From assembly GCF_013184805.1 (NCBI RefSeq), contig NZ_JAATNG010000005.1:1-64000 (forward strand): a DNA stretch of 64,000 nucleotides. Direction: 5' to 3'. The translations under genes were made by a program, and so were the position numbers. Under the pieces are notes generated by a model. It was not told the DNA's origin, ran no database searches, and saw nothing but the letters and a program-made list of their open reading frames with translations. The DNA comes from Pseudoruegeria sp. HB172150 (GTDB lineage Bacteria > Pseudomonadota > Alphaproteobacteria > Rhodobacterales > Rhodobacteraceae). Positions 58,120 through 63,185 of this stretch are shown one piece after another; positions within the stretch are counted from its first letter, which is position 1, and each line of letters opens with the position of its first letter.

Positions 58120-60204
58120 TCAAGCGGCGCCGCGATGGGCCTGCTCTATTGTTGGGCCAGGGTCGTCGGCCAGTGCGAATTGGGACACGGCGCCGTTCAG
58201 CGTCTCGCATTCCGTTACCAGCAGGCGTGTGGCAGCGGTCGTCTCCTCGAACATCGCCGCATTCTTCTGGGTCAGCTGGTCGAGTTGCCCGACTGCGCTG
58301 TTGATCTCGCCCAGTCCCTGTGATTGCTCCACCATCTTGGCGGTGATGGTAGACACCCGTTCGGCCACGAGGCCGACGGTGCTCACGATGCCTTCAAGCG
58401 CGCTGCGCACCTCGCCGACCTGGCCGGTCCCGGCCCGGACTTGCTCGTCGCTGCGGGCGATCAGGGTGTTGATGTCATGTGCTGCCTCAGAGGCGCGTTG
58501 CGCGAGTGCGCGGACTTCCGAGGCGACGACCGCGAAGCCACGCCCCGCTTCACCGGCGCGGGCGGCCTCTACCCCCGCATTCAGCGCCAACAGGTTGGTC
58601 TGAAACGCGATATCGTCGATCAAACTGACGATTTTGCCGGTTTCCTGCGAGGATCTGCTGATGCCCTCGATTGCATCCACCATCAAGGTGACGGCCTCCT
58701 GGCTGTGTTCGGCCGAATCGCGGGCTTCGCGTACGAAAGCGTCGACTTCGGCCGAGCTGTCGACCGCGCTCTTCACGGATGTGGTCAGGACCTCCAGCGC
58801 CGCCGAGGTTTCCTCGAGCGATGCTGCCTGGCTTTCTGTCCGCTGTGCCAGAGCGTCCGAAGCGCTTGCGATCTGGTCGACTTCGTTGCGGATCGTTTCG
58901 GCGGATACGAGAATGTGCCCCATGGTCCTGGTCAGGTTGGCCACCGCTTCGTTGAAATCCACGCGCAGCTTGTCGTAGCCCTCGGCCAGTTCGCGGTCGA
59001 TGGTCTCCGACAGGTCCCCAGCGGCCAGCCGGCCCAGTGCGTTCGCCAGTTCCGTAACCACCTGGCTCTGCTCTGCCAGCCGTTCCTGGCGCTCGGTCTC
59101 CGCGGCCTGCCGGGCCGCCTCCCGGGCTTCCTGTTCTTCCTGTTTGCGCCGCGCGTCCTCGATTTCACGCTGGCGGTCCGCTTCCTGTCGTGCCGCTTCC
59201 TCTGCCTGCCGCTCTCGTTCCGTTGCTTTCGCCGCCCGGCGCGCGGTTTCCTCTTCTTCTTCCAGCCGCAGCTTTTCAATCGCGTTGGCGCGGAAGACCT
59301 CGACCGAACGCGCCATGGCGCCAAGCTCGTCCCGGCGCTTCGCGTCCGGCAGTTCTGTATCGAGTGCGCCGCCCGCGATGGCCAGCATCTGACCATTCAG
59401 GCGCCCAAGCGGCCGGATGACAGATCCGCGCACAGACAGGAACGACCCGCCGCCGGCGACAAGGGCGATGAAGGCTAGGATGACATAGGAGATTTTCTGG
59501 CTCCTCACTTCGTCGGCGTGATCTTCCGCCGCGCTCTGGCGGCTCGCTTCGGCCAGCAGCCTGCCGACATCGGCGGTCACTTCGCTGAACTTCAGGCTCG
59601 TGCTGTCAAGCTTGTTGCGGATCGCCTCGATGCGGTGCGTCTCCTCGAACAGGAAATTATTGCGCGCGCGCTCGAAATTTCCGTCTCTTGCCATCCGCAA
59701 CGTGCGGCTGTTCGATACCAGGTAGAGTGACATCAGCCGTTCGATCTGGGCGGCCGTCCTGGTCAGGAAAACGACACTTCGGTCAAGTTCGGGCTGGGAT
59801 ATGCTGCCTTTCCCCAGCACTGCAGATAGCTGCATAATCGCCGAAAAATATGTTCCGATCTCGGTGTCGAGCCTGTCGCGCAACACCACTTCGGGAGCTG
59901 GGTCAAAAACCTTTGCGTCGAGGTTCGCCCGGCGCAATGTTTCCATCCCGACAAGCAGGCTGTTGATCTCAAGCAAGGACGAGGTCATCGCGGCGCTGGT
60001 CTGGCTAATATCCTCGTTGGTGGCCAGCGCGGCATCATGATGCTCGAGCGACTGTTCGGAACGTCGCGACGCCAGCTCGAGTGTGACGGTGTTGAGAATG
60101 GCGAGCACACCAATCGGCACCAGAACCCACACCATGATGCGGGCTCCAATGCCGAATTTGCTGGGCTTCGGCAGTTCGGCCCCTGGCGAAGTGATCTCTT
60201 TCAT
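58120..60204 (-). CDS. Methyl-accepting chemotaxis protein
   Basis: 694 aa. TM1 about residues 22-44; a periplasmic helical sensor domain of about 190 residues; TM2 about 236-258; a HAMP domain; then a long Glu/Arg/Ala-rich coiled coil (about 310-390, [22 protein letters not shown] in part); a second HAMP-like segment ([17 protein letters not shown]); and the signalling domain with the hairpin tip [22 protein letters not shown]. No CheR/CheB tail pentapeptide is seen. It lies 16 bases after a gene for a secreted repeat protein and is cotranscribed with it. Confidence 0.93.
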
Positions 60205-60220
60205 GGTTTGACCTTCCGCC

Positions 60221-61138
60221 TCAGAACAGGCTGGACTCTTCGCCGGACAGGGCCGCGACGATGATCCGTGACTGCTTGATTACGAAAAACACGTCCGAGG
60301 GCGTCCTGCCGCCTTCAGGCGGCGCCAACCGCGTTGGTGTACCGACACCTGCCGCTGTCTTGATCGCGTGGGCATCTGCCATCGCGCGGGACAGCACAAG
60401 GATTACATCCGATGGCGTGATCCCCTCTTTCTTCGCTTCTGGCACGGCAATGCCGTCGACGGCGAAACGGCTGTCCTTCTCTGCCAATGCGTACAGGTCC
60501 GAGATCAGGCTGATAGCAGCCGAATAGACATTGGCCGGGGTCCGGCCGGATTCCGGCCAGAGCCCCTCGATCTTATAGGACGCGCCCGCCGCGTCCGCGA
60601 TCTCCTGCAGCGTCAGGCGCAGTGTCATCGCGATCCGGTGCACATCATTGGGGACAGTGGCCGGTACGCCGAGCGCATCGAGCTGTGCCGAGATCCGCAG
60701 CAGGTTGCCGTAGACATCCGCCGGTGTCTTGCCGCTGGGCATCGCGGGTACCGCGATCTCCTCTTCGATACCGTAGGCACTGTGCAGTTCCAGCACGTCA
60801 GCCTGGATCTGGTCGACAACGTGTTTCACATCCGAGGGCGTCACTTCCTGCGACGGCAACGGCGCCAGGGCCCGTGTGTCAAGACCATTCATGTATCGCA
60901 GAAGTTGAAGCTTGCGCCACACATCGCGCGCATTCTGCAATACATGCCGTGGGCGTGTCGGGTCTGCCGGAACCGAGACTTCCGGCACCTCGGAGAAATT
61001 GGCCGCGTTCAGCAATTCCAACTCCAGGCGCACGGTCTCGGTTGTCTGGAAGACGTGGTCAGGCGTAGCCTCCTGCGGAATAGCCGGTGCGGCCAGACAG
61101 GTTAAAAAGAACATGGATTGGATTAGAATTCTGCGCAT
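60221..61138 (-). CDS. Secreted protein of eight TPxDV repeats, cotranscribed with a chemoreceptor
   Basis: 305 aa from ATG 61138. Signal peptide (residues 1-22). The mature chain carries the motif (T/R/V)-P-x-x-V eight times, at residues 25, 62, 100, 138, 162, 200, 241 and 279, with spacings of 37, 38, 38, 24, 38, 41 and 38, each followed by a 15-residue amphipathic helix. Examples: [57 protein letters not shown]. Repeat 4 is shortened. No family was recognised. Its position as the first gene before the chemoreceptor suggests a periplasmic sensory partner; that is inference. Confidence 0.85.
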
Positions 61139-62753: not shown

Positions 62754-63185
62754 CTATGCCGCCTTTTTCCGTCCCAGTCCGATTTTCTTCGCGGTCTTCG
62801 AACGCTTGGCAGAGTAGTTCGGTGCGACCATCGGATAGTCTTTGGAAAGACCCCAACGCTCGCGATACTCCTCGGGCGACATGTCATAGGAGGTGCGCAG
62901 GTGACGCTTGAGCGTCTTGAAGGGCTTGCCGTTCTCGAGGCAGATGATCGCGTCCGGGGTGACGGAGGCGTCGATCGGAACAGCGGGAACAAGGGGTGCG
63001 ACAGGCTCTTCCACCAATTCGGGCGCGCCGCCGGCCAAATTAGCGAGAGTTGCATGGACAGATTGGATCATGCCGGACAGTTCGTCGGATGCCATCTGGT
63101 TGCGCGAGGCATAGGCAGCGACAATCTCGGTCGTAAGTGAAAGGAGGTCGTCCGTACTTTCAGTGGATTCTATGATGTCTTTCAT
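62754..63185 (-). CDS. MucR/Ros-family zinc-finger transcriptional regulator
   Basis: 143 aa. The C-terminal half carries the prokaryotic zinc finger (IICLENGKPFKTLKRHLRTSYDMSPEEYRERWGL) with Cys and His ligands, then KDYPMVAPNYSAKRSKTAKKIGLGRKKA. MucR/Ros proteins are H-NS-like silencers of exopolysaccharide, motility and virulence genes in alphaproteobacteria. Only the second Cys of the classical CxxC is visible, as in MucR itself. The long upstream interval suggests autoregulation. Confidence 0.9.
   Translation of the reverse strand: MKDIIESTESTDDLLSLTTEIVAAYASRNQMASDELSGMIQSVHATLANLAGGAPELVEEPVAPLVPAVPIDASVTPDAIICLENGKPFKTLKRHLRTSYDMSPEEYRERWGLSKDYPMVAPNYSAKRSKTAKKIGLGRKKAA

Follow-up and report, generated by a model that had tools for sequence, protein, structure and literature searches.

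Transport-type binding proteins have a two-lobed fold, and CpxP is a small periplasmic helical accessory of the histidine kinase CpxA. In the sections available of one review, TorT-TorS, LuxP-LuxQ, PstS-CtpL and LsrB-Tsr stand as established pairs of a periplasmic partner and a receptor (PMC6321045), and indirect sensing by way of binding proteins is described there, and in the accessible part of a second review, with four-helix, HBM, sCache and tandem-PDC sensors (PMC6321045, PMC8534201). Because these parts of the reviews describe sensors of such different kinds (PMC6321045, PMC8534201), partner proteins that act on several sensor folds have precedent.

In the window, by which we mean the whole stretch of 64,000 nucleotides that was analysed, a repeat protein of 305 residues (60221..61138, minus strand; open reading frame and homologues) is encoded first in a two-gene cluster, followed by a chemoreceptor (MCP) of 694 residues (58120..60204, minus strand; open reading frame and Pfam). 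The stop codon of the repeat gene and the ATG of the chemoreceptor gene, both on the minus strand, are separated by 16 bases (60205..60220), as the earlier note had stated, and this gap, as read from the sequence, holds a GGAAGG resembling a ribosome-binding site. The chemoreceptor has the domain order of an MCP, with a periplasmic sensor at residues ~46–236 (59497..60069, minus strand), predicted to be a four-helix bundle from AlphaFold2 and its Foldseek neighbours, then a HAMP domain at residues 259–307 (59284..59430, minus strand; PF00672, 4.6e-10) and an MCP signalling domain at residues 491–645 (58270..58734, minus strand; PF00015, 1.5e-41). A long charged linker rich in Glu, Arg and Ala (residues ~310–395) lies between HAMP and the signalling domain, and is missing in the Epibacterium, Tritonibacter and Shimia receptors. 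Elsewhere in the window, an open reading frame at 62754-63185 (minus strand) reads like a MucR/Ros-type zinc-finger regulator.

The repeat protein begins with a predicted signal peptide region (residues ~1–22, 61073..61138, minus strand), assigned from the hydropathy of the N-terminus. A hydrophobic stretch ahead of repeat 1 is present in 38/38 family members that have their N-terminus, with a best 12-residue mean hydropathy of 1.53–3.19; the 39th aligned member, L023, begins at a contig end and has no N-terminus. Outside the signal region, the 39 aligned members contain 0–2 Cys per protein. The array consists of eight (T/R/V)PxxV motifs at residues 25, 62, 100, 138, 162, 200, 241 and 279, with the prolines at 26, 63, 101, 139, 163, 201, 242 and 280 spaced by 37, 38, 38, 24, 38, 41 and 38 residues. 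Each repeat is assigned from shuffles, an AlphaFold2 helix and a leave-one-repeat-out HMM, and all lie on the minus strand: repeat 1 (TPDHV, residues 25–61, 60956..61066), repeat 2 (RPRHV, 62–99, 60842..60955), repeat 3 (TPSDV, 100–137, 60728..60841), the short repeat 4 (TPADV, 138–161, 60656..60727), repeat 5 (VPNDV, 162–199, 60542..60655), repeat 6 (TPANV, 200–240, 60419..60541), repeat 7 (TPSDV, 241–278, 60305..60418) and repeat 8 (TPSDV, 279–305, 60224..60304).

PxxV occurs nine times in the repeat protein, at the eight repeat starts and at P159 within VPATVPNDV. None of 20,000 shuffles of residues 23–305 reached nine; they averaged 1.9, and the highest count was 8. Six PxxV pairs are spaced by 37–41 residues, where the 20,000 shuffles gave at most three. 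With HMMs that left out the repeat under test and were built on the seven remaining positions in the 39 family members, 8/8 window repeats score above all 50 of their own shuffles, repeat 4 being scored with a 27-residue window that reaches three residues into repeat 5. Shuffles and HMMs agree with the earlier note, in which eight PxxV repeats, of period 37–41 except for one of 24, had been described after a signal peptide. Across the members, repeat 2 is recognised least (25/39 above the 99% shuffle level), and repeat 8 is recognised in 11/11, just 11 members being long enough for the test. In repeat 2, P63 is conserved in 38/39 and R64 in 36/39 homologues; in repeat 4, P139 and V142 are conserved in 37/39 and D141 in 36/39. 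The most conserved residues include P63, R64, H65, K76, P101, P139, D141, V142, V245, A254 and D/E255, and these are the first places to look for a contact or ligand site, or may simply maintain the fold. At the DNA level, a pattern search in the window's own genome gave 73 matches versus 45 for the control, a difference that says little on its own.

The AlphaFold2 model of the repeat protein (mean pLDDT 94.3, pTM 0.89, from the 39-sequence alignment A4) has eight helices past the signal region, starting at residues 26, 63, 101, 139, 163, 201, 242 and 280. The helix starts coincide with the motif prolines, one helix per repeat, so that the helix proposed earlier to follow each motif appears in the model at all eight positions, and the T-P-x-D form of the motif looks like a helix N-cap. 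Foldseek found no fold match, either in the PDB, where 36 matches up to E 10 had a best value of 0.98 and probabilities of 0.05 or less, or among viral models (49 matches, best E 1.4). Our claim for the model is the absence of a match among solved structures, not a unique fold.

The window protein has no Pfam match up to E 10 and no NCBIfam match up to E 1. Other members, scanned with Pfam (eight from the A2 alignment and six more) and with NCBIfam (ten), gave weak and scattered matches only, the best at E 0.041, and in the Pfam scans of the window protein and the 14 members none of the known alpha-helical repeat families (TPR, SEL1, HEAT, ARM and others) matched. The CpxP/Spy (LTXXQ) family likewise has no Pfam match in the window protein or the scanned members. 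Sequence searches of the PDB gave no credible match, with a best E of 0.26 in the first search and 0.57 with the 39-row profile A4; the artificial protein 7rgr, which appeared with the A2 profile at E 0.0065, was absent with the deeper A4 profile and was rejected as a relative. Literature searches, one of them with four motif strings, gave no description of such a repeat family among the papers listed. The family and its architecture thus appear not to have been described in Pfam, NCBIfam or the PDB, the libraries searched, in line with the earlier note, whose author recognised no described repeat family; a profile match to a known repeat family of unrelated role, which that note had named as counting against its reading, did not arise in any of the three.

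Relatives of the repeat protein are patchily distributed. At E 0.01 or better, 34/398 sampled genomes of the phylum matched, and with two false matches removed 32 remain, including the window's own. Within the window's class, a first, small profile gave 3/385 genomes, one of them false; in its family the protein was found in 2/394 genomes, own included, and a search of close relatives gave 4/101, own included, with 2/4 of the other genomes of the same genus positive. Because the system is this patchy (2/394 in the family, 2/4 in the genus), it is not essential. Matches were found in 4/78 genomes of the class of genome G783 and in 22/48 of the class of G781, and seven loci come from named genomes (Maritimibacter twice, Epibacterium, Tritonibacter, Shimia and two alphaproteobacterial MAGs). 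A single-protein scan of genome contigs gave no relative, and plasmid searches with three members gave no match. Three candidate homologues were rejected and excluded from the counts: L017 in G199 (E 7e-4), where the gene reads as a phage capsid-like protein, and L082 (E 0.004) and L083 (E 0.007), which by Pfam are OmpA and T2SSE proteins. Repeat proteins of double length are encoded at L051:6993-8840, L052:3632-5527, L055:501-2399 and L058:6672-8570 (615–632 residues); in L051, L052 and L058, where the contig extends far enough, genes for two hybrid kinases and then a receiver protein come next, and these overlap or abut.

Forty-six homologous genes were examined, of which 45 adjoin a receptor on the same strand (18 MCPs and 27 kinases) and one, in L050, is cut off by a contig end inside the repeat gene; the loci are not independent, in that four pairs of repeat proteins are 81–94% identical. 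Among the tabulated loci, a receptor on the same strand is found in 39/43, with gaps of -89 to +33 nt, and these partners are 17 MCPs and 22 hybrid histidine kinases, as assigned by purpose-built profiles and, for eight partners, also by a check of the whole protein with Pfam. The contigs of L055 and L062 end inside a protein 83% and 76% identical, respectively, to kinase partners elsewhere. The L060 contig ends inside the repeat gene, and its last 99 bases are identical with those of L124 from the same genome, which carries the remainder of the gene; the next protein there is 45% identical to a kinase partner, directly after the repeat gene, and L060 and L124 were counted as one gene. In L123 a kinase lies next to the repeat gene, followed by genes that read as CheR and CheB, and in L125 a kinase lies next to a partial repeat gene. 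L125 was considered as the continuation of L050, from the same genome, and was counted separately, the contig ends having no exact overlap of at least 20 bases.

Few genes would be expected beside a receptor by chance, given that the 5.06 Mb of the window's genome contain 8 matches to MCPsignal and 25 to HisKA; the receptor-rich genome G781 has 35 and 85, respectively, in 4.7 Mb. The four loci in which the receptor gene comes first, L068, L075, L077 and L079, form a single clade. At the level of gene neighbourhoods, the comparison demonstrates the pairing of repeat protein and receptor, and it lends good support to the earlier guess that the protein works as a partner to a receptor. The pairing with chemoreceptors that had been proposed holds across families and classes as far as adjacency to a receptor is concerned, but the partners are not only chemoreceptors, 27/45 being kinases. 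A loss of the pairing among relatives, set down beforehand as evidence against the proposal, is not what we find, given that 45/46 genes adjoin a receptor and the remaining one is cut off.

Apart from CheB/CheR genes at some kinase loci, the other neighbouring genes vary between the loci read, and no conserved metabolic neighbour that would hint at a ligand was found among them. A CheB-CheR fusion protein (Pfam) is encoded directly behind the partner kinase at L053:12660-14339, genes of similar size follow in L056, L063, L066 and L067, and L059 has CheB/CheR genes by reading. Some partner kinases may thus adapt by methylation, as the fusion behind the L053 kinase suggests, and the CheB/CheR genes at kinase loci fit an adapting chemosensory-type system, naming no ligand. 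At L053:6608-7654 and L063:5715-7574 the gene immediately ahead of the repeat gene, overlapping it by 4 nt, codes for a CHASE3 sensor protein. At its C-terminus, the partner chemoreceptor at L078:4492-7473 (minus strand) has, in addition to 4HB_MCP_1 and HAMP, a hemerythrin domain (E 6.2e-9), which suggests an oxygen or redox input.

As for the partners' sensor domains, a scan of 40 N-termini gave 21 matches to PF21623 (HK_sensor_dom_bact), 21 to dCache_1 and five to 4HB_MCP_1, the last all in MCPs (L068, L075, L077, L078 and L079). PF21623 is above cut-off in 15/15 kinases read (from the 21 kinases other than L023), and dCache_1 is mostly below its own cut-off. The sensors of L023, L046 and L080 have no credible Pfam match, the partners in L049 and L081 have MCP signalling domains without a recognised sensor family, and for the window's sensor type Pfam gives only HAMP and no sensor family. 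The window sensor, modelled with AlphaFold2 as part of receptor residues 1–271 (pLDDT 82.4, pTM 0.62), forms a four-helix bundle, and the solved structures nearest to it are the ligand-binding domains of MCP2201, Tar and Tsr and other bundles, including designed ones, with a best E of 5.2e-3 and none at or below 1e-3. Partner sensor domains are thus of at least two kinds, helical bundles and PF21623/dCache-like domains. Alignment of 12 relatives of the window's sensor domain gave R167, T168, A180, N183, F186, E187 and E188 as invariant. In 289 alphaproteobacterial genomes, with up to eight first-look candidates scored per genome among the matches listed, the sensor profile gave no full-length match beyond the window's genome and G094, both of which are in the profile. 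Because both of these have the repeat protein, the sensor was not seen without it. G074 and G207 were rejected as sensor relatives, as their matches span only profile positions 193–271, next to the membrane.

In the tree of the repeat proteins, where several inner nodes have modest support and the sensor-type labels are our own, the members fall by the type of sensor in the partner. In L023 the partner is a hybrid kinase, with a sensor region akin to that of the window's receptor (tblastn, 26% over residues 146–380, E 1e-17), and the repeat protein groups with the window's type despite the kinase partner. Sensor type is confounded with taxonomy, the window's type being seen in alphaproteobacteria only, and because the two overlap, most of the grouping could reflect descent. 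The main exception to such an account is provided by genomes G781 and G787, each with two systems, where the repeat proteins group by sensor type and not by genome: those of L057 and L056, with PF21623 kinase partners, cluster together, as do those of L077 and L079, with 4HB_MCP_1 partners. The partial distance correlation between repeat protein and sensor, given the cytoplasmic domain, is 0.78 for kinases (n = 17 of 18 loci, L054 being left out as near-identical to L053) and 0.75 for MCPs (n = 11), with a permutation p of 0.0005 each, and that between repeat protein and cytoplasmic domain, given the sensor, is 0.33 (p 0.014) and 0.51 (p 0.001), respectively, values that saturated distances and a slower cytoplasmic domain can inflate. 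In these correlations the repeat-protein distances are tied more closely to the sensor than to the cytoplasmic domain.

We consider it likely that the repeat protein serves the adjoining receptor as a dedicated periplasmic co-receptor and acts through that receptor's sensor domain. The protein is predicted to be exported to the periplasm and to fold into an all-helical array with one proline-capped helix per repeat; it would bind the neighbouring receptor at its periplasmic sensor domain and would itself detect an extracytoplasmic cue, either a ligand or a state of the envelope, upon which receptor signalling would be altered. Such a co-receptor system probably senses a signal from outside the cell. 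An unlikely alternative is a ligand-free modulator, which would sit on the sensor domain and keep the receptor in a single state until it is titrated away, in the manner proposed for CpxP and CpxA. It would suit a small, all-helical protein that has a signal region but no ligand-binding fold of a known kind, and partners with different sensor folds could be explained by protein–protein contact in place of a shared ligand, but the proteins scanned have no Pfam match to a CpxP-type family.

Less probable still is that the repeat protein carries no signal and serves assembly or structure, stabilising the receptor, clustering it or tying it to the envelope. The repeat architecture, the constant linkage and the existence of double-length versions of 615–632 residues fit a scaffold, but for a general scaffold it would be unexpected that the type of repeat protein follows the type of sensor, with distances closest to those of the sensor. 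We give very little weight to the reading that the protein is secreted for some unrelated purpose and has no more than an operon in common with the receptors. Short gaps by themselves only suggest co-transcription, but receptors adjoin 45/46 genes, in several classes and with either gene first, the 46th being cut off, and the other neighbours differ between the loci read, so that this explanation is already disfavoured. Returning to the dedicated co-receptor, we see about an even chance for a wider form of the proposal, in which the undescribed helical-repeat family would be a general plug-in co-receptor, fitted in the course of evolution to two or more sensor folds that are unrelated and to two kinds of output, and would provide Gram-negative bacteria with a second route of indirect sensing that does not use binding proteins, in a fold not among solved structures.

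The sequence mark of eight PxxV-opened helices beside a receptor flags candidate systems in 32/398 sampled genomes of the phylum, names the receptor partner at each locus and opens the way to a direct binding test. If the model is correct, the family also brings an architecture for which Foldseek gives no counterpart in solved structures. As for Tar, Tsr and MCP2201, the window receptor combines a predicted four-helix-bundle sensor with HAMP and an MCP signalling domain, but its sensor differs in having no Pfam match and invariant residues of its own among the 12 relatives. CpxP resembles the repeat protein as a small periplasmic helical accessory, but the repeat protein has no Pfam match to it, and we know of no eight-repeat array in CpxP. 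TorT-TorS, LuxP-LuxQ, PstS-CtpL and LsrB-Tsr, as presented in the sections available, are alike in that a periplasmic partner acts via the sensor domain of a kinase or chemoreceptor, a mode of action that we infer for the repeat protein. TorT, LuxP, PstS and LsrB are transport-type binding proteins, whereas the repeat protein is predicted to be all-helical and built from repeats; a two-lobed alpha/beta binding-protein fold was not found in it, the model being all-helical and without a family or PDB fold match. Hydrophobic N-termini in 38/38 members and receptor linkage in 45/46 genes are shared with the partners of the binding-protein kind. The system can thus be placed, as far as our searches went, with the receptor-associated periplasmic partners, a known kind, to which it would bring a helical-repeat architecture without precedent in the searches made.
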